Of a DNA stretch of 64,000 nt, positions 11,813 to 27,795 are shown in pieces. The notes beneath the pieces were generated by a model. It was not told the DNA's origin. It saw only the letters and a program-made list of their open reading frames with translations, and ran no database searches. Position 1 is the first letter of the stretch, and every line of letters starts with the position of its first letter. The position numbers and the translations under genes were made by a program. Source of the DNA: an uncultured Planctomycetota bacterium (GTDB lineage: Bacteria; Planctomycetota; Planctomycetia; Gemmatales; HRBIN36); NCBI GenBank assembly GCA_937944855.1, contig CALFAY010000039.1, positions 1 through 64,000 on the forward strand. Direction: 5' to 3'.

Positions 11813-12087
11813 GGCTGTCGGCTCGTTGACGTTGGGACGGGACAACCTTCAGTGGTTAGCCTAATTCGCCCACGGACGTGATGCAAGCCGCCGGCGGACT
11901 CGACTTGCCTCAGGCATGAGGGAGCGGACGGGAACTTCCAAACGGCCTTTCCGTTCGCTTTGCATATCGTAACCGGAAACCCAGCGGGGGACCGACGTCC
12001 GCCTGCTTTTCCGTGATCTGGACGTCTTCCTGGTGACACGGAGCAGGGGGGAGCGGAGGGCAGGCTTTGTTCGCGGAGACCGCTGTC

Positions 12088-12576
12088 ATGCCAACACGCT
12101 TCCGAACCAGCCGACGGGTCGAATTCGCCGACACCGACATGGCCGGCATCATGCACTTCGCCCGGTTTTTCGCCTTCATGGAAGAAGCGGAACACGAGTT
12201 CCTGCGGTCGCGGGGCTTGTCGGTGGTCATGGTCCACGAAGGCAAACGCCTCGGGTTTCCCCGTGTCTCCGCCCAGTGCGATTTCTTCAAGCCGCTCCGG
12301 TTCGAAGAAGTGGTGGAGATCGAGGTGACGCTGAGCCGCATCGGCGACAAGTCGCTCAGCTACGCCATCGAATTCCACAAGAACGGCGAGGTGATCGCCC
12401 GCGGCTCGCTGACCACCTGTTGTTGTCTTGTCAGCCCGGAAGGCATGCAAGCGATCAGCATCCCCGACGCGATCAAGGTCCGTCTCATGGAGCAGGAACC
12501 GGATTCCGTGAGAGCACCCCATCCTCGGGACGTGAGATCGGGTCCGACCGGGACTCCGGCGGAAGAACCGGCTTGA
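12088..12576 (+). CDS. acyl-CoA thioesterase, 4HBT hot-dog fold
   Basis: A 162-residue single hot-dog domain of the 4-hydroxybenzoyl-CoA/YbgC thioesterase type, which hydrolyses acyl-CoA. The family motif is visible near the N-terminus as RVEFADTDMAGIMHFARFF, with the catalytic Asp in the D-x-x-G helix region. I chose ATG 12088 because GGAG lies 9 nt upstream; a TTG at 12067 is an alternative. The last about 30 residues are rich in Pro and Arg and not family-like. They overlap by 92 nt, tail to tail, the end of the giant acyl-CoA dehydrogenase/ETF gene on the other strand. A shared role in acyl-CoA metabolism is plausible, but the genes are convergent and not an operon. Confidence 0.9.
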   Translation: MPTRFRTSRRVEFADTDMAGIMHFARFFAFMEEAEHEFLRSRGLSVVMVHEGKRLGFPRVSAQCDFFKPLRFEEVVEIEVTLSRIGDKSLSYAIEFHKNGEVIARGSLTTCCCLVSPEGMQAISIPDAIKVRLMEQEPDSVRAPHPRDVRSGPTGTPAEEPA

Positions 12577-15500
12577 GCGCGGCGATGAAGGCGGGCACCG
12601 TTTCAAAAAGGTCGCCCACCACCCCGAAGACCCGGGGCCGGGCCTGACGCCGGTTCAGGGTCATGATCGGCGCCTCGGGATCGCGGTTGAAGGCGATGAT
12701 GGTGGCGCGGGGATCGATGTAACTAAGGTGCTGCGGTGCGCCGCTGATGCCGACAGCCAGCAGAATCCGAGGCCGCACGCTGACGCCGGACTGCCCGATC
12801 TGCCGATCCACCGGCAGCAGCCGAAGCTCCTCCGTGACCTTGCGGGAACCGCCCACGGCGATCTGCGTCACGCCCAGCGACCGCAAGGCCCGCTCCAGCG
12901 GCACGATGACTGCTTCGTAGCCGTCACGGCTGCCGATGCCGAAGCCGACGTCGATGATGAAATCGGCGTCCTTCAACTGCGGCGTGCCGATTTCCTCTCG
13001 GACCCGGGCCAGCATGTCAGCCACGGTTTCCTTGGTGAACAGGGTCGTCGTGGCCGCAACCCAACGCTGTACCTCGACGCTCCCCGGCGGTGCCGGCGGA
13101 GATTCGGTCTCAGCCTCGGGCAAAAGCGCCATCCAGGCAGTCCGGCCTGATTCCGGAAAGAGTCTCCGTTCGACCGCCAATTTGGCGCGTCGGGTCACGG
13201 CAACCAACCCGTCGGAGGTTCGCCGAAGCCGGGAAACCCGGAGGACGACGTACCCGCTGTTGTCGAGACGACACGCCAGCCGCGGCCAGAGCGGCTCCAG
13301 CCAGCTTTCGCCCAACACGATTTCCGGTCGGAGTCCGGCGGCGGTCCAGGCCTCCTTCACGATGCGCTGCTTCCAGGCCGGGACGAGCAGGGCTTCCTTG
13401 GGAACTTCAAGAAGCACGATCCGAGACGCCCCCAGACGCATGGCCTGTCCAGCCGCGGCTTGTTGTGCCAGCGAATCTGGCGGAGCCAGGATCAAGACCC
13501 CGGCTTGCCGATCGGCGCTGAGAACGGCCCGGGCACCTTCGGCTAACCGGCCCTGCGAGTCGGTCGCAAGAACCGTCACAGTACGGGCATCGCGGAGCAG
13601 ACTCGGTTCGGAAACCGGCTCGATCTTCCCGAGGGAAACCAGGTCAGGCTCTGGCGCCTCGCCACCGATGCCCAACTGCTCCCGGAGCAGATCGGCTGCT
13701 TTGTCCACGTCCAACACGCTCTTGGCCGACGTCAGTTCTTCGCCGCCACGCTCAACAAGGCCTTCGACGACCCATGCACCTTCGGAGACGGGAACGGCTT
13801 GCGGCCAGGGCACGATGTCAAGCCGTGTATCCAGACCGGCGAGATATCCGTCGGTCGTGAACTCGCGCAGAGCAACCCCGGCGGGAACCTGGACAACGAT
13901 GGGCAGAGTTTCCCGCCGCAATCGCTTCGGTTCGCTCAGGCGAATCTCCGAAGCCGTGGCATCGTGTTGAATCTGGACTTGTGCCGTCCACGTCACTGAT
14001 TCGCAGCCGAGTCGGCCCGCCAGATGCAGGCCCAGCAGTCCATCCTCTGAGCGGCCGTCGCCCTGGGGAGCAACAAGCACATCGAAACGGCGGTGAACGG
14101 CTTGGAAATGGCGGACCAGGGCCGCTGCCGCTTCATAAGGTGACGCCAAGGCGAGCGAAGACCTTGAGGTTTCTGATTCCAGATCCGAAGCGACGAGGAG
14201 GGTCGCTGACTCCGCTCCGTAAGCCAATGCCTCCCGCAGTTGCAGGGCCAGGTCCGGACCGCCAACCGCGGCAATGTGCAGTTTCACCCACGCCGGAGCG
14301 GCGTCCCGAATACGCAGGGCACATTCCAGAGCCGAACGCGAAGCCGCTGTCATCCGCCAGGTCGCCGTCAGGAGCTGCCCCTGAAGGATGACTGGCCGCG
14401 ACGATGTCACCGGCTCGAACTCCAGCACCACGAGCACCGCGAGCGGGCGGGAGACCTGGGCTGACACGTTCGCTTCCGGGACCGCTTCGCCTGGCTGGAT
14501 GCGATGCAGAACCAGGCTCGCCGCCCGCACAGCCGGGGCATACTGGCCTTTGTTATGTCGCTCCAGCTCCAGATCGAAATGGAACAGGCGGGCCGCGGTC
14601 TCCCGTCGGCAGCGTTCCAAGGCTTCGGCGGCGCAGGAGGTGTCGCCGATCCGGAAGCGTTGCTGCCAGATCCACCGTCCCAGAACGCATTCCATCGCCT
14701 TGAGCCATGCCGCAGCCTCGGCCAGTTCGAAACAACTGGCCTGGAAGCTCGGGTTGTGGACGACATTGGCTCCGAACTGGCCGACCACTGCCGCCAACCG
14801 CTTGCGGAACGCTCCCCGCAGACCGAGGTATTCGGTGATCTGAGACCGAAAGGCATCCGGTTGCCCGGCGGCGCTGGTGGTGTCCTCCTTCCAGCGCGGC
14901 AGCACCTCCTGGACCAAGTGCGTCCAGATCAAGGACCGCTGGATCTCGTTGGTGCCTTCGTAGATGTTGAGGACTCGTGCATCGCGTTTCCGCTTCTCGA
15001 TCACGAACGCCTGGGTCTGTCCCGGCAGACCGTGCAGGTCCTCGGCCAGTTCGATCGTTTCGTGCAGGAGTTCCGTGACCAGGAACTTGGCGATGGAGGC
15101 CTCGATCCGCAGCGAGCGGGTGTGCGGATGCTCGAGTCGTCCGACCAGATCGAAGGCCAGCGCCTCAGCGAGATACTGATTCACCGCCAGCGGCCGAACC
15201 GGATCGGCGTCGCTGGTTTCGCTGGGTGGGTGCAAGTCCTGACACGCCTTGACGACGGTCTGGAGGCTGGCCAGCGAACTCATGGCGATGCCGGCCCGTC
15301 CGAGGTTGAGCGTTTCCAGAGCGTTGACCTGTCCGCGGCCTTCCAGACCCAGGACGTTTTCCCTTGGCACTCGGAGGGAGATCAGCGACAACTCGTTGGT
15401 CGGACTGCCACACTGGCCCAGCTTGCGTTCGTCCTTGCCGACGATCAGCCCCTCGGCATGCCGATCTACGAGGAAGCCGGTGACGCCCTCCTCGGTCCGG

Positions 15501-18500
15501 GCGTAGAGCGCCACCACGCCCATGACGCGGCCGTTGGTGATCCACATCTTGCTGCCGTTGATTTCCCAATAGTCGTACCAGAGCTTGCCGCCTCGCTCCC
15601 GAATCTGGCCGATGTCGCTGAAGTACACCTTGCGGGAGCCGTGCAGGTAGTAGCGGCGGCACTTCGGATTGTCGGTGTCGTAGTCGTACTCGTCGAACTC
15701 GATACGGCTGGCTGGGGCTTTGTCGGACCAGCGGTAGTACAGACCGTCGCTGCGCACTTCGACCCGTCGGGAGTCGAGCAGGACCCGCGGCTCGCGGAAG
15801 CCATGCGGAACAAACTGGAGGACGCCATCCGGGTCGCTTTCGATCGGCACGGAATGGAGCACGGCCCGACTGGCGAGGCGGGCGGTGTCCGAACCGGCGC
15901 TGGGTTCGGTCAGAGCGAAGGCGGAGATCTGTCCCGAAGCGATGAGACGCAGGTAAAGGTCGCAGGCCTCGGCCCGGCGGTCCATTTCGGCCAGCAGATC
16001 CGGAGCGACGGCGCAGGCGTGATGCCAGCCCTCCTCGGCATGGCGCAGTTCGACCCGGCAGCCAGACCGATCGTGTTCCCGCAAAGCCCAGGCGAGATTG
16101 TTCCAAGCCGTGACAAAGCGGTGGCACACGACCCGAGCCGCGGTCACACCGAGGATCCGTTTCTCGACCACCTCCCGCAGCGCCTCGACGCCCCGACGCA
16201 CCTCCGGCAAGGTGGCGCAAACCGAGAGCTTTTGCAGGTCGGCTTCGACCCGATGATGCAGATCGTGATCGGCGACGAACGCGGCCAGCTCTTTTTTCGC
16301 CTTGGGGATGTCCTTGAACCGGGCCAGGAAGATCGGCGTGGTGCCGAGGCTGGCATTCACCTGGATCGTCAAGGCGGTGGCGACGTCGGCTTCCCGCTGG
16401 GCGTTCTGCACCATCAAGTAATAGTCCGCCTTGCGCAGCCCTTCGCCGCCGAGTTCCTTGGGGATCAGGAATCGGAAACAGCCGTGCTGCCGCAGGAAGT
16501 CGAGGTCTTCCTTGGCTGGGCAGTGCCGATCTTCGAGCCATCTTTCGTAGGGTTTTCCATCCCTTGGCTGACCGAACTGGCCGCGGAACAGTTCCCGATA
16601 GCGCTGGTCAAGCTCTCGCAAACCGACGTCGCAGGATGCCATTTCCGGCGTCAGCCGCGGCACCGTGAAATCCGCTGGTTTCACCAGATAATCGCCCGTG
16701 TCATAGGGCAACGGCGTGGCGAGCAGCAATTCATACTCGCGCGTGGTGGGAGTGTCCGCTGGGCTCTGATTCTCTGCGACGAAGGAAACCGCTGCTGTCA
16801 GCGGCTTGCGAATCCGCTGTTCGACCTGAAGAACTTGGGCCGCGACTTCATCCACCCAACATTGCAGAAGGGCTGCGTCGGTCTCCACTGTTTCGGCCCG
16901 TTCGAGTCGGCGGTGCAGATCGAGGAGAAAGGCCTTGGCGGCCAGGAGGGCGGCCTCGAGACGCGCCAGGGCAAACAAAGTCTGGCAGTCACGAATGTGG
17001 TGGGAACGGGAACGAAGTTCGGCCAGACACGATCGGACGCGGTTGCGACACAGACGCAGCTGCTCCAGTTCGGGCAGGAGGGCCTTGCGCTGAGCGATCT
17101 GATCAAAAAGGGACGCTTCGTCGTCCCATTCGGACAAATTGCCGCTGGCCAAAAGCGTCTCGGCGTGGCCTCGCCAGACCGCCGGATTGGCCGGTCCCAG
17201 ATAACGGAACGCCGCTGCGTCGCGGTAGAACTTGGCCAGGATGTCATCCTCGGAGTAGCCCGTTCCCCCGAAAATCTGCCCGGCATTGTAGGCCACGCTG
17301 CCAGGAGCCGTGCCGAGCAGTTCCGCCGCCAGGGCTTTAAGCAGCACTGCCTGACGGACGCCAGAAGAGTCGAGCTGTTGCGGAAAGATTTCGTCGAAAA
17401 GCGCGAGGAGCCGCTGACGACACGCCATTTGCGCCAGCAGCTTTTTGACCGCGCCGAACTTGGCGATGGTGTCTCGGGCCTCGTCGTCGCTGTAAAGTCC
17501 TGGAAACTGAACGCGCGTCGCAGCATGTTCCGCGGCCCGCTCAAGCAGCGTGTCAGCCATGCCGTGGGCGATGGCTGTCAGGTCCGCCGACGTGAGCACT
17601 TTCCACCAGCTTTGCGGGGAGCGTAGAGGGCTTGGCGTTCCCGGAAGCAGCGACAGGGACCCCAGAGCGATCTTCTGCAATCCGGCTCCCCGCAAGCCGA
17701 GGGGAGCCAGAGGCTCGCACCGAACCTTCGACTCGTCAGCAGGCACTTCAACCAGCCGATCTTCGATGAGTACAAAGGTCCGGTCCGCCCGGGGAACGAA
17801 CCAGGCCGTGTTATCCCCGAAAGCGTCCGTCTGCATGACTCCCAAGGCAAGCCATTGGGAAGCGGCTTCGATGCCGGTCAAGTCGCGGGCCAGAAGATGG
17901 ATCGAAACCCGAAAGGCCAGTGACGGATCACGCGCCGCCAACTCGGCCAACAGGGCCTTGCGACGGACAGGATGCAGCGCCTGTTCCGTCGGACCAGACC
18001 TGGGAACCGAAGCGGCTAACGCGAGCAGCGCTTGCTCTTGATGCGGAGCCAGCCTCGGCGTGACGCCCTCGTGCCGGGTGCCTTCCGGTTCGAGATGTCG
18101 CCAGACGGCAGACGGTAGGATTTCGTCCAGGCTCTGGCCTATTTCGGCCCGTTGATTGGCTAATGCCGTGTCAGCGGGCTGGGTCAGCTCGCCGGTTTCG
18201 TTGGCGGTTCCGAGCACCTGCCGCAGGCCGGCCAAATGGTGCTGGCGAAGTTGTCTGGCTTCAGCAACCGCCCAGGCGAAACGCCGGTTCCTCAGCCACT
18301 GTGTCACCCGTCCGGTTCGCGCCGCCGCATCGCGGACCAGCTTCGACAGGGGCTCGGGTGAGTCGGACACAGCGCTGGCGAATCGTGCTGCCAAGTCCGC
18401 GGCGACTTGCTCGGCATAATGTCCCAGCCGGAGCAAGTAGTCGGCCCGAGCGGCATCGACAGTGCGCGGCTCCTCACCCAGGGCCTTGGCCAGGGCGTCG

Positions 18501-20767
18501 AGTTGCCGGTCCAGGGTGTCGATCAGTCCTCCCATTCGGCCGGGGAAGCCGTTTTCCGGGAGGGTCGCCCGGCTATTCGTCTGTCTGGGAGCCGGAGACG
18601 ACGCCGCAGCGGCTCGACAGGCGGCCTCCTGGACCCGTGCGGAAGCGGGCGATGTGACCGGATAGATGAAGCGATGTCGGCCGTCGCGGCCCCAGTCCAC
18701 CGCGTCCGTGGTCCGCCAGCAGGTTTCGCATTTGATGCAGTTCTCGTGGTTGACGATGATCTGAAGCTGGTTCTGCGGTCCCGGGCGGGCTTCGTACACA
18801 TGAGCCGGGCAGACGTGCCACAGGCCGTCCTGCACGATCTCGAAGCGTTTGTCGAGCCGCGTCGGCCAGTGGACGTGAATGTGCGAGCGGGCCGGAGCTT
18901 CGTAATGCAGTTCGCCCAGGCGGCCTTCCCAACTCGCCGCAGCCGATTCCCGCCGTACCGTCAGATCGCCAATGCTTCGACTGGCCGTCTCATACTCGCC
19001 GAGGTGGCCATGCCTGGTCGGACTCGTAGAGACGCCCAGCCGAGCCTGAACAAACCGCAGAAGCGTCACAAGCAAGGCGAACAGGGCGATTCCCGCTCCG
19101 GCGAAGCATCCGATCAGGCAGTCAAGCAGGTTGACTTGGCGGAACAACAGTGCGAAGGCCTCGCGGAGCTTGCTTTCGAGCGGTTCGTCGTCGTTGGCGT
19201 AGATGCGGCGGGCCGAGGCGGCCAGGACCGGCAGAAATCGCCGTGCCCAGCGGCGAACCAGCCAGGGAACGGCCTCCTGGGGGATTTCATTGCCTGCAAC
19301 GCTGAACGAGAACCGAATCTCCCCAGCCGAGGGAACGCCGACCCGCGGCAAGCCGGCCAGGTCGCGGAAAGCATTGAGCCAGCCATGAAGCAACAAGCGC
19401 CCGACAGCTGGGCGGCCGGTGATCTGCTTCAGACGCAGTGCTTTCCGCAGAGCTTTCCAGTCGTCACGCCAGGACAGCCAGCGCTGCGGACCCAACTGCT
19501 CGACCAGAAGGCGAACGAAGTCGAGCAGCCGACTGCGATTCCACCGCCGCGTCCGCGTCCAGACGTAGGCCGTCTTCAGGCACAGATCCACGTTGCCGTC
19601 GAAGAACCACTGGGTCCTTTCGACGTAACTGGGCCAGCGGCGGAGAAACTCCACGTCCTTCCACGCGCGGGTTTGCTGAAGCGGCTCCAGATAGTGCCGT
19701 CGCAGGTCCGCTTCGCTGAAGCTGCCCCCTTCGGCCCGGATGGCCTTGGCCGCTTCCACGAGGAGCAGCCCCATCCGCGTCGCCGGGCCGGTGTAGTTTG
19801 GGTAGGGGAAGTCAGTGCCGAGGGCCGTCGCTGCTCCGCCCACCGCCAGCCCGTCGCCGATCAGAATCGGGATGTCCTTGGCTCCGCCGCCCCGGATCAG
19901 CTTCGCTCCGTAGACGCCTCGCCGTCCCCCGCGGCACCAACGCTGCACCTCGGACAGGCTTTCAAACCATTCCAACAACAGATTCGGATCACCCTCGAAA
20001 TGGCGGGCCAGATGGTCGGCGGGCAGGACCAAGCCAATGGAGAGGCTTTGACGATTGGTGTAGATGAAGCCCCCCATGTTGAGATGCAACGGCCGACCCT
20101 TGAGCGTGCCGTTGCGCAACACGATCTCATAGGCGGCTCCTTCCTCCGGACCGAGGCCGAAATTGGCCTCAACCGCACCCTCTGGCAGTTCGATGACTTG
20201 CTTGATTCCATGCAAGAACGTCGGTTTGCCGTCGGCTGAGATCTGGCGCTCCAACCCTTCGCGCGTCACTAGATGGGAAGCATCCCCCTCGGCAAGGAAG
20301 GTCAGGTCGGCGTACAGCGGTCCGCGTTGCGTCGCCGCGCCGATGACCCGCTCACCGTCGCGGATCAGACTTTCCGCCGTGGTGTTGTTGAGCACGACGA
20401 CGCCATGCTGCACGGCCAGATGCGCAAGATGGTGATCGAAGATCGGCCGCAGGACCGTGTAGCAATGCCGAAAGGCTTCGGGATCCCGATACCGCATCCC
20501 GAACAGACTGTAGCCGTCGGAGACGAAGAAGCCGCGTTCGACCAGGCGGCGTTCCCAGGCCAGCTCCTCGACCGCTTGCGGACCCAGCAGCGATGGATGA
20601 GCGAGATTCTCGGCGAAATAGACGCAGCCGGACCAGTTCTCGGCCCCGGGAAACGGAGCGGCTTCGACGACGGCGACACGAAATCCGGCTTTGGCCAGTC
20701 CGATGCTCGCACTCAGACCCGCACACCCGCCGCCGATGACGAGCACATCGAATTGACTGGCTGCCAT
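12485..20767 (-). CDS. giant fusion: ETF-quinone oxidoreductase + two acyl-CoA dehydrogenase modules + EtfB + EtfA
   Basis: One uninterrupted frame of 2760 residues (about 300 kDa). Residues 1-520: ETF-quinone oxidoreductase/FixC-like flavoprotein with FAD loop VIGGGCAG (11-17). One hydrophobic helix lies at about 549-572. Residues 640-705: the ETF-QO/FixX ferredoxin module, with C653, C677, C680 and C683 spaced as in ETF-QO. Residues about 860-1190: acyl-CoA dehydrogenase-like module with QIFGGTGYSEDD and RDA (about 1163-1181) but no EGT Glu. Residues about 1345-1985: second, complete-looking dehydrogenase with TEPSAGSD (about 1615), INGSKMWITNG (about 1735) and YEGTNEIQR (about 1934). Residues about 2105-2330: EtfB. 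Residues about 2390-2735: EtfA with IGQSG and VGISGAPQH (about 2667). AAGGG lies upstream of the ATG. The chain would carry electrons from acyl-CoA through ETF to membrane quinone. It follows dnaJ by about 60 bp. Confidence 0.9.
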   Translation of the reverse strand: MAASQFDVLVIGGGCAGLSASIGLAKAGFRVAVVEAAPFPGAENWSGCVYFAENLAHPSLLGPQAVEELAWERRLVERGFFVSDGYSLFGMRYRDPEAFRHCYTVLRPIFDHHLAHLAVQHGVVVLNNTTAESLIRDGERVIGAATQRGPLYADLTFLAEGDASHLVTREGLERQISADGKPTFLHGIKQVIELPEGAVEANFGLGPEEGAAYEIVLRNGTLKGRPLHLNMGGFIYTNRQSLSIGLVLPADHLARHFEGDPNLLLEWFESLSEVQRWCRGGRRGVYGAKLIRGGGAKDIPILIGDGLAVGGAATALGTDFPYPNYTGPATRMGLLLVEAAKAIRAEGGSFSEADLRRHYLEPLQQTRAWKDVEFLRRWPSYVERTQWFFDGNVDLCLKTAYVWTRTRRWNRSRLLDFVRLLVEQLGPQRWLSWRDDWKALRKALRLKQITGRPAVGRLLLHGWLNAFRDLAGLPRVGVPSAGEIRFSFSVAGNEIPQEAVPWLVRRWARRFLPVLAASARRIYANDDEPLESKLREAFALLFRQVNLLDCLIGCFAGAGIALFALLVTLLRFVQARLGVSTSPTRHGHLGEYETASRSIGDLTVRRESAAASWEGRLGELHYEAPARSHIHVHWPTRLDKRFEIVQDGLWHVCPAHVYEARPGPQNQLQIIVNHENCIKCETCWRTTDAVDWGRDGRHRFIYPVTSPASARVQEAACRAAAASSPAPRQTNSRATLPENGFPGRMGGLIDTLDRQLDALAKALGEEPRTVDAARADYLLRLGHYAEQVAADLAARFASAVSDSPEPLSKLVRDAAARTGRVTQWLRNRRFAWAVAEARQLRQHHLAGLRQVLGTANETGELTQPADTALANQRAEIGQSLDEILPSAVWRHLEPEGTRHEGVTPRLAPHQEQALLALAASVPRSGPTEQALHPVRRKALLAELAARDPSLAFRVSIHLLARDLTGIEAASQWLALGVMQTDAFGDNTAWFVPRADRTFVLIEDRLVEVPADESKVRCEPLAPLGLRGAGLQKIALGSLSLLPGTPSPLRSPQSWWKVLTSADLTAIAHGMADTLLERAAEHAATRVQFPGLYSDDEARDTIAKFGAVKKLLAQMACRQRLLALFDEIFPQQLDSSGVRQAVLLKALAAELLGTAPGSVAYNAGQIFGGTGYSEDDILAKFYRDAAAFRYLGPANPAVWRGHAETLLASGNLSEWDDEASLFDQIAQRKALLPELEQLRLCRNRVRSCLAELRSRSHHIRDCQTLFALARLEAALLAAKAFLLDLHRRLERAETVETDAALLQCWVDEVAAQVLQVEQRIRKPLTAAVSFVAENQSPADTPTTREYELLLATPLPYDTGDYLVKPADFTVPRLTPEMASCDVGLRELDQRYRELFRGQFGQPRDGKPYERWLEDRHCPAKEDLDFLRQHGCFRFLIPKELGGEGLRKADYYLMVQNAQREADVATALTIQVNASLGTTPIFLARFKDIPKAKKELAAFVADHDLHHRVEADLQKLSVCATLPEVRRGVEALREVVEKRILGVTAARVVCHRFVTAWNNLAWALREHDRSGCRVELRHAEEGWHHACAVAPDLLAEMDRRAEACDLYLRLIASGQISAFALTEPSAGSDTARLASRAVLHSVPIESDPDGVLQFVPHGFREPRVLLDSRRVEVRSDGLYYRWSDKAPASRIEFDEYDYDTDNPKCRRYYLHGSRKVYFSDIGQIRERGGKLWYDYWEINGSKMWITNGRVMGVVALYARTEEGVTGFLVDRHAEGLIVGKDERKLGQCGSPTNELSLISLRVPRENVLGLEGRGQVNALETLNLGRAGIAMSSLASLQTVVKACQDLHPPSETSDADPVRPLAVNQYLAEALAFDLVGRLEHPHTRSLRIEASIAKFLVTELLHETIELAEDLHGLPGQTQAFVIEKRKRDARVLNIYEGTNEIQRSLIWTHLVQEVLPRWKEDTTSAAGQPDAFRSQITEYLGLRGAFRKRLAAVVGQFGANVVHNPSFQASCFELAEAAAWLKAMECVLGRWIWQQRFRIGDTSCAAEALERCRRETAARLFHFDLELERHNKGQYAPAVRAASLVLHRIQPGEAVPEANVSAQVSRPLAVLVVLEFEPVTSSRPVILQGQLLTATWRMTAASRSALECALRIRDAAPAWVKLHIAAVGGPDLALQLREALAYGAESATLLVASDLESETSRSSLALASPYEAAAALVRHFQAVHRRFDVLVAPQGDGRSEDGLLGLHLAGRLGCESVTWTAQVQIQHDATASEIRLSEPKRLRRETLPIVVQVPAGVALREFTTDGYLAGLDTRLDIVPWPQAVPVSEGAWVVEGLVERGGEELTSAKSVLDVDKAADLLREQLGIGGEAPEPDLVSLGKIEPVSEPSLLRDARTVTVLATDSQGRLAEGARAVLSADRQAGVLILAPPDSLAQQAAAGQAMRLGASRIVLLEVPKEALLVPAWKQRIVKEAWTAAGLRPEIVLGESWLEPLWPRLACRLDNSGYVVLRVSRLRRTSDGLVAVTRRAKLAVERRLFPESGRTAWMALLPEAETESPPAPPGSVEVQRWVAATTTLFTKETVADMLARVREEIGTPQLKDADFIIDVGFGIGSRDGYEAVIVPLERALRSLGVTQIAVGGSRKVTEELRLLPVDRQIGQSGVSVRPRILLAVGISGAPQHLSYIDPRATIIAFNRDPEAPIMTLNRRQARPRVFGVVGDLFETVPAFIAALKPVLPPESRSDPISRPEDGVLSRNPVPAP

Positions 20768-22035: not shown

Positions 22036-22177
22036 GCAGTCCCTCCCGACTACAGATTTTACGGCACACTTGCAGATCGGGCGATGCCGAGTGAAACCTG
22101 GAGCAGCTCGTGCGGGTACGGTATGCTGATCCTCGTAGGCATCGCAGGCTCCAGAAGTGACTGTTCCGAGGTCTGCC

Positions 22178-24067
22178 ATGATGGCTTCGATACGGTTCCT
22201 TTCCTGTCGTGCCGCGATTCTCCCCGTGGTGATCGCCCTGGTCCTCATCCGCTCGCTTCCCGCGGTTCCGTCCGAGACCCAACCGCCGGTCGTGGAGAAC
22301 TTCACGCTCCCCGACATCCACGGCAAGCCCTGGTCGCTGCAAAGTCACGGCGGCAAGAAAGCCACAGTCCTGGTCTTCGTCTCCATCGAGTGCCCGATGT
22401 CGAACGCCTACCTCTTTGATCTGGCCGAAATGGCCAAGGAGTTCGCACCGCAGGGGGTCGCCTTCGCCGCCATCAATGCCAATCCGGAAGAAGACCCGAA
22501 ACTCGTCACCGCCCACGCCCGGGAATTTGGAGTGAACTTCCCGTTGCTTCTCGACCCGAAGCAGATCTCCGTCCAGAAACTCCGGCCCACGGTCAATCCC
22601 GAGGCCTTTGTGCTCGATGCCGAACGGAAGGTCCGTTATCGCGGCCGGATCGACGACGCCTACTCCGCCCGACTCGTCCGCAATCCCCAGGTCACCCGGC
22701 AGGACCTCAGGGAAGCCCTCAACGAGCTGCTGGCCGGCAAGCCGATCAGCGTACCCGTGACCAAAGCCTTCGGCTGCCCCATCGAGCCGGTTCGCACGGC
22801 CCGGAGCGAACCCCAATCATCCGATGTCACCTACTACCGCGACGTATTGCCGATCTTGCAGCAGCACTGCCAGGGCTGCCATCGGCCCGGCGAGGTCGGC
22901 CCGTTTTCGCTCATGACCTATCGCCAGGCGGTCAAGTGGGGCGAGGACATCAGAACATATACCCAAAGCCGCAGGATGCCGCCGTGGAAGCCGACCAATC
23001 CTTCGGGGTGGTTCCGCGACGAACGGCACATCAGCGACGAGGCCATCGCCACGCTGGCCCGCTGGGTGGACGCGGGGATGCCGGAGGGCGATCCTAAGGA
23101 TGGTCCGCCGCCGCGGAAATTCCCCGAAGGCTGGCAACTGGGCGAGCCGGACCTGGTTCTGACGGTCCCCGAAGAGATGACCATCGGGCCTACCGGCCCG
23201 GACCTGTTCCGCGTCTTCGTCCTGCCCACGGGCCTGACCGAAGACAAGTACGTCTCCGCCATCGAGGTCCGGCCGGGCAACAAGCGGGTCGTGCATCACA
23301 CCCTCAACTTCGTGGACACGCTGGGCCGCGGTCGCCGCCTAGAAGAGGCCGAAAAGAAGCGGACCAAGTCTGCCAGCGAACAGGATTACGGTCCCGGCTA
23401 CACGGTGCAGATGGGCATCGGCTTTTTCCCGCCCAACGGCAGCCTGGCCGGCTGGGCGCCGGGCAACGTGATCCGTCCTCTGCCCGAGGGCGTCGGATAT
23501 TACCTGCCGAAGAATTCCGACATCGTCGTGCAGGTCCATTACCACCGCACCGGCAAGGTCGAGAAGGACCAATTGCGGATCGGACTGTACTTCAGCAAGA
23601 CGCCGGTCCGGGAACGGCTGCAACCGATCGTGCTGCCCGGGCCGTTCCTGCGGATTCCGCCGGGAGACGGCAACTTCGTCGTCCGCGGGGCGATCCGCGT
23701 CAATCAGCCCGTGACGCTCCATCAGATCACCCCCCACATGCATCTGCTGGGCCGCAAGATCCGGGCTGACGTGACCTTCCCCGACGGCCGAAGGATGAAC
23801 CTCATCCAGATTGATGACTGGGATTACAACTGGCAGGAAACGTATTACTTCCAGGAGCCGATCCACGTTCCCGAAGGCAGCGTCTTCACGGTCGAAGCCG
23901 TGTATGACAACTCGGAAAGCAATCCGCTCAACCCCAATCGTCCGCCCAAGCCGGTCCGTTTCGGCGAACAGACTACCGACGAGATGTGCTTCGTCTTCCT
24001 CGGAGCGACTTCCGAGAAGCCAGGCCGAATCGCGGTTGTTCCCGCGTTGTCGTCAGAGCGACCGTAA
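22178..24067 (+). CDS. secreted redoxin / c-type heme / copper-monooxygenase-like protein (copy 1)
   Basis: A 629-residue exported protein. After a signal peptide (hydrophobic segment to about residue 30) comes a redoxin/AhpC-type thioredoxin domain (about 38-190) with a single Cys in SIECPMSN (C72) instead of CxxC. A cytochrome-type motif CQGCH (C231, C234, H235) follows in a short domain rich in MPPWKP. The C-terminal half resembles copper type II ascorbate-dependent monooxygenases: H373-H374 (VVHH), QVHYH, H520-M521-H522 (PHMH) and M603 (DEMC) sit where the two copper sites need ligands. I chose ATG 22178 because GAGG lies 6 nt upstream; a GTG at 22157 is less likely. The substrate is unknown. 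It has a close paralogue at 26017. Confidence 0.87.
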   Translation: MMASIRFLSCRAAILPVVIALVLIRSLPAVPSETQPPVVENFTLPDIHGKPWSLQSHGGKKATVLVFVSIECPMSNAYLFDLAEMAKEFAPQGVAFAAINANPEEDPKLVTAHAREFGVNFPLLLDPKQISVQKLRPTVNPEAFVLDAERKVRYRGRIDDAYSARLVRNPQVTRQDLREALNELLAGKPISVPVTKAFGCPIEPVRTARSEPQSSDVTYYRDVLPILQQHCQGCHRPGEVGPFSLMTYRQAVKWGEDIRTYTQSRRMPPWKPTNPSGWFRDERHISDEAIATLARWVDAGMPEGDPKDGPPPRKFPEGWQLGEPDLVLTVPEEMTIGPTGPDLFRVFVLPTGLTEDKYVSAIEVRPGNKRVVHHTLNFVDTLGRGRRLEEAEKKRTKSASEQDYGPGYTVQMGIGFFPPNGSLAGWAPGNVIRPLPEGVGYYLPKNSDIVVQVHYHRTGKVEKDQLRIGLYFSKTPVRERLQPIVLPGPFLRIPPGDGNFVVRGAIRVNQPVTLHQITPHMHLLGRKIRADVTFPDGRRMNLIQIDDWDYNWQETYYFQEPIHVPEGSVFTVEAVYDNSESNPLNPNRPPKPVRFGEQTTDEMCFVFLGATSEKPGRIAVVPALSSERP

Positions 24068-24179: not shown

Positions 24180-25061
24180 ATGAATCGAAGTTGGCTGCCA
24201 ATTCTGCCCGGCTTGGCGATGGCTTTGCTGCTCGGCGGTTCCGCCGTGCAAGCCGATCCGCCGCCGGGGGCCGAGGCCGAGGCCAAACCGGCCCAGCCCA
24301 GTTACCGGGTTCCTTACCAGTTGACGGAAACCAAGCACATTCTGGTTCGTGCCCGGATCAACGGTAAGGGGCCATACCATTTCATCGTGGATACGGGAGC
24401 ACCGGCCCTGTTCGTCAGCACCGAGTCGGCCCAGAAACATGGTCTGACGGCCGGACCTGACGGCTGGGCGGAACTGGACAAACTCGAAATCGAAGGCGGA
24501 GCAGTGCTGGAGAAGATCAAGGCCCGTGTCGAGACCCCGTTCCAGGTTTCGGGCATGAATGCGATGGGCCTGCCCGGCATCCGGCTGGACGGCATGCTCG
24601 GCTACACGGTGCTGGCGCAGTTCCGCATCGAACTCGACCTCACCAGGCCACACATGATCTGGACGCGGCTGGACTGGACGCCGCCTCCGCCTCGTCCCAT
24701 TCTCGACGGCGGACAAGCTCCCAATGAACTGGCCGCGATGGGCGGCCTGATGAGGCTGCTCCAGGTTTTCATGCAGAAGCGTCCCGAGCCAGTCTATATC
24801 CAGCGCGGCTTTCTCGGCGTCCAGTTGGCCGAGAAGGACGGCGGCGTGGTCGTCGACCACGTCCTGCCCGGCAGCCCCGCGGACAAGGCTGGGCTTCGAA
24901 GCGGGGACCGCATTCTCCGGTTTCATGAAAAGGATGTCGGCTCGCTGAAGGACTTGCATGGCCTGGCTGCCGAGCACGCATCCAAGCAAGAAGTTGCTCT
25001 GGAAGTGGAACGCGGCGGCCAAAAGCACGCTAAGACCATCCGGACGGAAAGGGGGCTGTGA
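24180..25061 (+). CDS. secreted retropepsin-like aspartyl protease with PDZ domain (copy 1)
   Basis: A 293-residue exported protein. Signal peptide: MNRSWLPILPGLAMALLLGG, cleaved near AVQA-DPP. The aspartyl-protease fold has a single active-site motif VDTGA (D71), as in retropepsin-like bacterial proteases that dimerise. A PDZ domain follows (about 205-290, FLGVQL, GSPADKAGL, GDRIL). The frame is open back to 23811, but the start at 24180 is set by the signal peptide and a GGAG upstream. It lies 3 bp before its paralogue, so the two are co-transcribed. The middle segment is Pro-rich (WTPPPPRPIL). The protease target is unknown. Confidence 0.88.
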   Translation: MNRSWLPILPGLAMALLLGGSAVQADPPPGAEAEAKPAQPSYRVPYQLTETKHILVRARINGKGPYHFIVDTGAPALFVSTESAQKHGLTAGPDGWAELDKLEIEGGAVLEKIKARVETPFQVSGMNAMGLPGIRLDGMLGYTVLAQFRIELDLTRPHMIWTRLDWTPPPPRPILDGGQAPNELAAMGGLMRLLQVFMQKRPEPVYIQRGFLGVQLAEKDGGVVVDHVLPGSPADKAGLRSGDRILRFHEKDVGSLKDLHGLAAEHASKQEVALEVERGGQKHAKTIRTERGL

Positions 25062-25064
25062 CCG

Positions 25065-25907
25065 ATGACGCTTCTGAGTGCCTTGCTGCTGCTGGTTCCG
25101 TTTCCCCCCGCTGATCCGCAGGTCGCGGTCGAGCCGCCCAAGGCCGTCGGCAAAGTCACGGTGCCGATGGAGATTCTCAAGAGCAAACACATTGCCGTCG
25201 AGATCAAGGTCAACGGCAAAGGGCCTTACCGCGTCATCTTCGACACCGGCTCGCCGGTCACGCTCTTGGGCAATCGCATTGCCCAGGACGCGGGAGTGAT
25301 CTCGAAGGACCAGGCCCGGACGCCGGCCCTGTTCGGCGCCCGCGGCATGGGCACGGCCAAGACACTCGCTCTCGGCGATCTGGTCGTCGAGAACATGCCC
25401 GTCATGGTCATGGACCATCCGGCCCTGCGGGCAGCCGCCCGGGCCTTGGGACCGCTGGAGGGCATCGTCGGCTATCCGTTCTTCAGCCGCTATCGCACCA
25501 CCTTCGACTATCAAGCCAGCACGATCACGTTCGAGCCGGTCGAGTACTCCGACGCCGCCGGAGCGGACCTGATGCAGATGGTCATGCTCATGATGAACGA
25601 CCGCAGCAATAAACCCATCCAGAAAGTGCAGTCGCCGCGGACGCTGTGGGGCTTTCGCCTCGAAAAGCCGACGGAAGACGAGGAAAGCGGCGTGGTGATT
25701 CGGGAGGTCCTGCCGCAAAGTCCGGCGGCCGAGGCCGGTCTGGAAGCGGGAGACCGCCTGTTGGAACTTGACGACGTCTGGACCGAATCAGTCGCGGATG
25801 CTTACCGGGCGGCTGGCGGCGTATCGCCGGGGCAGAAGGTGAAAGCGAAGATCAAACGGGGCGAGATGGAGAAGTGCGTCACCATCGTGCCCCGTGCGGG
25901 TTTGTAA
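25065..25907 (+). CDS. secreted retropepsin-like aspartyl protease with PDZ domain (copy 2)
   Basis: A 280-residue paralogue of the preceding gene with the same order: short signal peptide (MTLLSALLLLVPFPPADP), protease fold with FDTGS (D60) and a flap-like GARGMG segment, then a C-terminal PDZ domain (about 200-278, VVIREVLPQSPAAEAGLEAG). A Met-rich patch (DLMQMVMLMMND) lies between the two domains. It starts 3 nt after the stop of the first copy, typical of a tandem duplication kept in one operon. Whether the two act as a heterodimer (each gives one Asp) is an inference worth testing. Confidence 0.88.
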   Translation: MTLLSALLLLVPFPPADPQVAVEPPKAVGKVTVPMEILKSKHIAVEIKVNGKGPYRVIFDTGSPVTLLGNRIAQDAGVISKDQARTPALFGARGMGTAKTLALGDLVVENMPVMVMDHPALRAAARALGPLEGIVGYPFFSRYRTTFDYQASTITFEPVEYSDAAGADLMQMVMLMMNDRSNKPIQKVQSPRTLWGFRLEKPTEDEESGVVIREVLPQSPAAEAGLEAGDRLLELDDVWTESVADAYRAAGGVSPGQKVKAKIKRGEMEKCVTIVPRAGL

Positions 25908-26016
25908 GTCCGCCGGGGGAGGGTCTGACAGACAGGACTTTCCCGGGCGTGTCTTGCGGAGACCGATCATTTCCTCGCGAAGTCCGAGGATTCAGGGAAA
26001 GAGGGAGATTTCATCC

Positions 26017-27795
<1,779 letters not shown>

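Follow-up and report, generated by a model that had tools for sequence, protein, structure and literature searches.

The window, by which we mean the whole 64,000-nucleotide stretch of DNA analysed here, carries on its minus strand a single frame of 2760 codons (12485-20767), which opens with an ATG at 20767, closes with a stop at 12485-12487 and contains no internal stops. Its product, referred to as W and used for all residue numbering, joins in one chain the parts of a dehydrogenase, an electron-carrier protein (ETF) and a membrane quinone reductase, which are normally separate proteins (Table 1). Both the unbroken frame and the order of its modules had been described in an earlier note that did not name the strand; the frame lies where it had been placed, and the order was borne out by Pfam, NCBIfam and PDB comparisons, by profiles built from the orthologues and by Foldseek. 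Pfam alone missed EtfB, EtfA domain I and most of the degenerate acyl-CoA dehydrogenase (ACAD), all of which were recovered with the orthologue-built profiles. At its 3' end the gene overlaps by ~90 bases (12485-12576) with a convergent thioesterase-like gene, and the orthologue in the SKYG27 MAG largely lacks the C-terminal ~28 residues. A conserved operon was considered and rejected, as the upstream DnaJ is absent at the other loci listed and the thioesterase neighbour seems to be limited to the genus. Elsewhere on the plus strand of the window we observed a pair of similar genes (22157-24067 and 25894-27795) whose products begin with an AhpC/TSA redoxin domain, joined in the first of them by a copper type II monooxygenase C-terminal domain, and also two aspartyl protease-PDZ genes that adjoin each other in tandem (24183-25907).

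Table 1. Features of the fusion gene and of its convergent neighbour, with positions in the window, residues of W and the basis of each assignment
Feature	Residues	Position	Strand	Basis
Whole gene (P0001), 2760-aa fused FixC/ETF-QO - ferredoxin - pseudo-ACAD - ACAD - EtfB - EtfA		12485..20767	-	Frame and orthologues
FixC/EtfC-type FAD domain of quinone oxidoreductase (GGGCAG, GAENWSG)	1-400	19568..20767	-	PDB 7koe_C, NCBIfam FixC
Insert of low conservation in the quinone-oxidoreductase part	401-636	18860..19567	-	Alignment
Hydrophobic stretch	552-570	19058-19114	-	Alignment
Single [4Fe-4S] ferredoxin part, C653/C677/C680/C683 invariant	637-705	18653..18859	-	Pfam Fer4_ETF_QO, alignment, dN/dS 0.01
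Helical linker domain 1, weakly conserved, no family assigned	706-904	18056..18652	-	Alignment
Pseudo-ACAD, predicted to be catalytically dead	905-1225	17093..18055	-	Orthologue profile, motif loss
R1085-V-Q-F-P-G, FAD-adenosine motif (human SCAD R297 equivalent)		17498..17515	-	10/10 conserved
Q1164-I-F-G-G-T-G-Y1171, FAD motif (SCAD Q365, G369)		17255..17278	-	Q1164, G1167, G1168 10/10 conserved
Helical domain 2, predicted all-helical	1226-1394	16586..17092	-	AlphaFold model; homologous stretch kept in G038
Active ACAD (predicted), lineage-specific insertions ~1480-1605 and ~1640-1730	1395-1960	14888..16585	-	Pfam ACAD domains, Foldseek target TM 0.7-0.8 to ACADs
ALTEPSAGSD, flavin/substrate-binding motif of active ACAD	1618-1627	15887..15916	-	Near-invariant; TEPxAGSD 10/10
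E1937 of IYEGTNEIQR, predicted catalytic base	1937	14957..14959	-	10/10 invariant; SCAD E392 equivalent
Helical domain 3, weak resemblance to the helices of the ACAD C-domain	1961-2105	14453..14887	-	Profile vs 1buc, E 0.002
EtfB module, nucleotide-site motifs lost	2106-2335	13763..14452	-	Profile vs CarD 3e-16, Foldseek, alignments
EtfA domain I	2391-2575	13043..13597	-	AlphaFold model, Foldseek
EtfA domain II, FAD site intact (SRKV, GQSG, SGAPQH, FNRDPEAP)	2576-2738	12554..13042	-	Pfam ETF_alpha, conserved block
4HBT acyl-CoA thioesterase-like gene, convergent, overlaps fusion 3' end		12067..12576	+	Pfam

The same module order in a single frame, for which a search of planctomycete proteomes had been proposed beforehand, was found in the SKYG27 MAG (76% identity), in the BJ17 MAG (46%) and in four genomes from other families of the phylum (G136, G078, G226, and G198; 31-32%). 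Because these independent MAGs carry full-length orthologues, an assembly error, a chimera or a hidden stop, of which the first and the last had been named in advance as grounds for giving up the reading, can be rejected, and the fusion gene is confirmed as real and not an artefact. A further orthologue (G045) has its 5' end cut by a contig edge, while fragments in G004, G023, G047, G152, and L007 match the fusion architecture and all end at contig edges; G152 and G047, considered as candidates for split genes, were rejected as both run off the ends of their contigs. A second copy in G226, which shows 100% protein identity over the overlap and stops at a contig edge, is likely an assembly duplicate. 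The fusion is carried by about 8 of the 294 sampled genomes of the phylum. The fragment on contig L007 (residues 1-1199, 34% identical) comes from a MAG labelled Nitrospirae, reflecting either a mislabelled bin or a transfer between phyla. A relative of 1329 aa in G038 (L027:3916-7902), which adjoins a FadB/FadJ-like gene, has retained the helical domains and, complete with its four Cys, the quinone-oxidoreductase part, and is devoid of both ACAD cores and of EtfBA, hence the parts of the fusion are not always needed together.

In comparison with SKYG27, purifying selection was evident in every module (dN/dS < 1, 0.01-0.33), with the lowest value in the four-Cys part (0.01), 0.16 in the pseudo-ACAD and the highest value, 0.50, in the linker between EtfB and EtfA. 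Judging from orthologue conservation and dN/dS, EtfB and EtfA domain I are fast-evolving parts of the fusion, and conservation peaks at the FixC FAD site, the four-Cys part, the R..QFPG and GGxxY motifs of the pseudo-ACAD, the catalytic motifs of the ACAD and the EtfA FAD site. These data also bear on whether ordinary separate subunits arise from the chain by cleavage or by internal re-initiation, which we regard as very unlikely: the weakly conserved linkers 706-904 and 2336-2390 (dN/dS 0.33 and 0.5) could be cleaved, and one weak GTG start with a Shine-Dalgarno-like sequence lies at codon 2582, but no other such internal start was found at the module joints and no sampled genome was seen with the parts as separate genes in the same order.

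Within the quinone-reductase part, residues 5-396 match NCBIfam FixC and PDB 7koe_C, and residues 637-683 match Fer4_ETF_QO, above the Pfam cut-off in the genome search, with the cysteines C653, C677, C680, and C683 exactly as the earlier note had listed them; the FAD domain and the four-Cys [4Fe-4S] part by which ETF-QO and FixCX proteins are recognised are therefore both present. The name ETF-QO given to this part in the same note fits its single four-Cys cluster on the same chain, whereas by sequence the first module is far closer to EtfC/FixC (2e-31 vs. 7koe_C) than to mitochondrial ETF-QO (1.7e-6 vs. 2gmh). ETF-QO (ETFDH) resembles the fusion in having FAD and one [4Fe-4S] on one chain and a Fer4_ETF_QO domain with matching Cys, and differs from it in being a separate protein, not joined to ACAD and ETF, with a much weaker sequence match than FixC. 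The best PDB match for the first module, 7KOE, is EtfABCX (FixABCX) of T. maritima, which has in common with the fusion EtfA, EtfB, a FixC-type flavoprotein, a ferredoxin part and quinone reduction (predicted in the fusion). That complex bifurcates, is built from four individual subunits and has two clusters in its EtfX (PMC10734219), while the fusion is a single chain with four Cys, has lost the EtfB nucleotide motifs and has ACADs added. The membrane helix noted before was found to be an inconstant feature: in W, SKYG27, G136, G078, and G226 residues 552-570 form a strongly hydrophobic segment that could aid membrane attachment, but in BJ17 and G004 this segment is largely missing.

The two ACAD modules differ in the motifs that they retain. 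A profile of residues 905-1225 matched VLCAD (8ca1, 3e-8) and butyryl-CoA dehydrogenase (8e-8), and in ten orthologues with identities down to ~30% the residues R1085 (in R-[VI]-Q-F-P-G, the RxQFG motif), Q1164, G1167, and G1168 (in QxxGGxGY) were present in 10/10. Position Q+27 of this module, the site of the catalytic Glu in SCAD, is occupied by G, A, P, T or L in 10/10, TEPxxGSD and WITNG are missing, and large parts are poorly conserved; when the sequence of W was read by eye, no Glu was seen at the helix-G position that LCAD uses. The active ACAD, on the other hand, keeps TEPxAGSD, KMWITNG, and YEG[TS] with E1937 in 10/10, has no RxQFG in its aligned C-domain, and is variable at the positions expected to hold Gln (E-27) and Gly (E-23), neither of which was found there in any of the ten. 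An RxQ motif assigned to the active module in a first motif table (W and G136) was discarded, being in W an RGQFG near residue 1396, outside the C-domain; the comparison of the modules rests on aligned positions and not on motif-table matches. Stand-alone ACADs from the same phylum and genome can carry all these motifs on one chain, with some paralogues deviating, and the Gln-to-Gly and Gln-to-Glu spacings in the fusion match those of human SCAD.

In human SCAD the FAD is common to both monomers, its flavin ring being held by one of them, while the adjacent monomer contributes R297, Q365, and G369, which bind the FAD at its adenosine end, and E392 acts as the base (PMC13027082). The motifs thus point to a feature newly noticed here, namely that the two ACAD modules would hold complementary halves of one FAD site and, since the pseudo-ACAD keeps the FAD half that the active ACAD has lost, they probably pair within the chain as a pseudo-heterodimer that has a single active site; it is also possible that the ACADs pair between two copies of the chain. 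A FAD site split between a live half and a partner half is found in ChsE4-ChsE5, a heterotetrameric ACAD of Mycobacterium tuberculosis in which the subunit with the catalytic Glu also binds the flavin ring of FAD and its partner binds the ADP-ribose (PMC11153573). The motif complementarity of the fusion places these same two halves on different modules, but ChsE4-ChsE5 is encoded by two genes and has a separate ETF, whereas in the fusion both ACAD modules lie in one frame, together with helical scaffolds, ETF and quinone reductase. The word degenerate, which had been applied to the first ACAD, is therefore apt for its missing catalytic Glu and lost flavin motifs and falls short where the invariant cross-interface FAD residues are concerned, as the module has not merely decayed. 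Among the alternatives that we weighed, the least improbable, although still unlikely, is that the pseudo-ACAD is a decaying duplicate with no catalytic role and that the active ACAD finds its partner in a second copy of itself or in another cellular ACAD. The loss of the catalytic Glu, TEPxxGSD, and WITNG and the poor conservation of large parts of the module would agree with such decay, but two invariant FAD-contact motifs across sequences as distant as ~30% identity, a dN/dS of 0.16 and the absence from the active ACAD of exactly those residues that the pseudo-ACAD keeps all speak for a retained function in the pair.

An AlphaFold model of both ACAD modules (pLDDT 75) matched ACADs in Foldseek with a target TM of up to 0.79. 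No significant match emerged when the profiles of the two ACAD modules were compared directly, or those of the three helical domains, so that these comparisons do not point to a recent duplication. Helical extensions mimic the dimer-dimer interface in VLCAD and methylsuccinyl-CoA dehydrogenase (PMC5798300), and by analogy the helical domains of the fusion may play this role. These two enzymes, the first of which is the closest match to the pseudo-ACAD profile, combine an ACAD core with helical extensions as the fusion does; they are, however, homodimers with two active sites, while in the fusion each chain would combine a live core with a dead one.

For the ETF part, a profile of residues 2095-2340 matched EtfBs, the closest being CarD (the EtfB of caffeyl-CoA reductase, 3e-16) and an Acidaminococcus EtfB, and the AlphaFold model of residues 2095-2738 (pLDDT 79) matched EtfA (1e-13) and EtfB (4e-10) chains in Foldseek, with a low full-length TM for EtfA that is expected if the orientation of the domains differs and is not a proof of it. 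The FAD site of EtfA domain II is intact, with conserved motifs and a Pfam ETF_alpha match over the cut-off (FAD domain at 2597-2682), and this domain, at the C-terminus, is among the best conserved blocks of the fusion. The fused EtfB is weakly conserved among the orthologues, and NPxD and AIDGDTAQVG, which from ETF structures we take to be the nucleotide-site motifs of EtfB, are lost in 10/10 fused EtfBs and kept in stand-alone planctomycete EtfBs. Because of this loss the fused ETF probably holds one FAD and does not bifurcate. Ordinary ETFs carry AMP in EtfB, and bifurcating ones a second FAD at the same place (PMC5691135). Bifurcation or confurcation by the fusion, as in EtfABCX or EtfAB-Bcd, with NADH and ferredoxin as reactants besides acyl-CoA and quinone, would nevertheless be in line with a quinone-oxidoreductase part closest to T. 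maritima EtfC and with the EtfB profile matches given above; we hold it to be quite improbable, as such an enzyme requires a second FAD in EtfB at the AMP place (PMC5691135), the motif loss in 10/10 argues against a site for this FAD or for NADH, and the four ferredoxin Cys stand against the two clusters of T. maritima EtfX (PMC10734219). The complexes EtfAB-Bcd and caffeyl-CoA reductase (CarCDE) are like the fusion in that ACAD and ETF are held together stably, and unlike it in being non-covalent, bifurcating and devoid of a quinone reductase.

The window's genome (94% complete) was surveyed together with 40 relatives, giving a set of 41 genomes of the order (G000-G040). PF00766 (EtfA FAD) and PF05187 (Fer4_ETF_QO) were found only in fusion carriers and only within the fusion; PF01012 agreed with the PF00766 result, but it fails on the window's own divergent EtfB, which makes PF00766 the better test. 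Within these detection limits, no ETF or ETF-QO other than those of the fusion was detected in the window's genome or in the 41-genome set. In the wider phylum, ETF domains were present in 211 of 294 genomes, and most of the matches listed lay in frames about as long as an ordinary ETF subunit. We also observed that most of the G000-G040 genomes have ACAD-like genes and no detectable ETF or ETF-QO. Three other ACADs and two 3-hydroxyacyl-CoA dehydrogenase genes are present in the window's genome, and the latter, like the 4HBT neighbour, agree with acyl-CoA oxidation and do not name the substrate. ETF-linked ACADs are able to run as reductases (e.g., caffeyl-CoA reductase, Bcd) and the lipid chemistry of planctomycetes is unusual, both of which would suit a fusion that runs in reverse and uses quinol to reduce enoyl-CoA for the synthesis or modification of lipids. 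We consider this the least probable of the alternatives, with the EtfB site lost and nothing seen of a site at which ferredoxin or NADH could drive electrons uphill, and with the 3-hydroxyacyl-CoA dehydrogenase genes in the genome and the FadB/FadJ-like gene beside the reduced homologue in G038 pointing towards oxidation.

Taken together, it is likely that the fusion is a single-chain acyl-CoA:quinone oxidoreductase with a FAD site common to its two ACAD modules, a prediction in keeping with the earlier proposal that one gene carries the parts leading from acyl-CoA through ETF to quinone, as each motif for cofactor binding and catalysis is present and conserved in the relatives. In the proposed mechanism, the active ACAD, with E1937 as the base, would oxidise an acyl-CoA, presumably a fatty acyl-CoA, and reduce the FAD, whose flavin end would sit in the active ACAD and whose adenosine end would be held by R1085, Q1164, and G1168 of the pseudo-ACAD. 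In EtfAB-Bcd, EtfA domain II carries the FAD and swings between its partners (PMC5691135). The corresponding C-terminal domain of the fusion, swinging on its linkers, could receive electrons one at a time on its FAD and pass them to the single [4Fe-4S], from which they would reach the FixC-type FAD and finally the membrane quinone, with EtfB serving as a structural and docking base without nucleotide. The channelling of electrons, the lower leakage to O2 and the tethering of the path to the membrane that had been suggested for such a chain may follow from this arrangement. The broader reading, which we regard as reasonably probable, is that of an acyl-CoA-to-quinone respiratory branch in one polypeptide, in which the live and the dead module share one ACAD site, EtfA acts as a tethered shuttle, EtfB is free of nucleotide and electron transfer is intramolecular, and which contains the only ETF/ETF-QO detected in the order.

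No published description of such a fusion was found in the open-licence literature, to which the search was confined, in line with the earlier note, whose author was aware of no protein with all of these modules. All the parts of the fusion are of known kinds; it is the single chain and the fused pair of a live and a dead ACAD that were not found described in that literature. An ACAD dimer has apparently been turned into a single-chain half-site enzyme, with a two-gene parallel in the mycobacterial ChsE enzymes, and the fused ETF seems to have given up AMP. Where the fusion is the only ETF detected in a genome, it may be asked how the other ACADs of that genome are re-oxidised. Whether the electrons of beta-oxidation reach the membrane by free diffusion or through an organised assembly is a long-standing question, for which a natural fusion with fixed stoichiometry offers a one-gene system and, for the relay from ACAD through ETF to the quinone reductase, a single cryo-EM target. 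If the proposed reading is true, the transfer of electrons from the fused dehydrogenase would be an intramolecular event.
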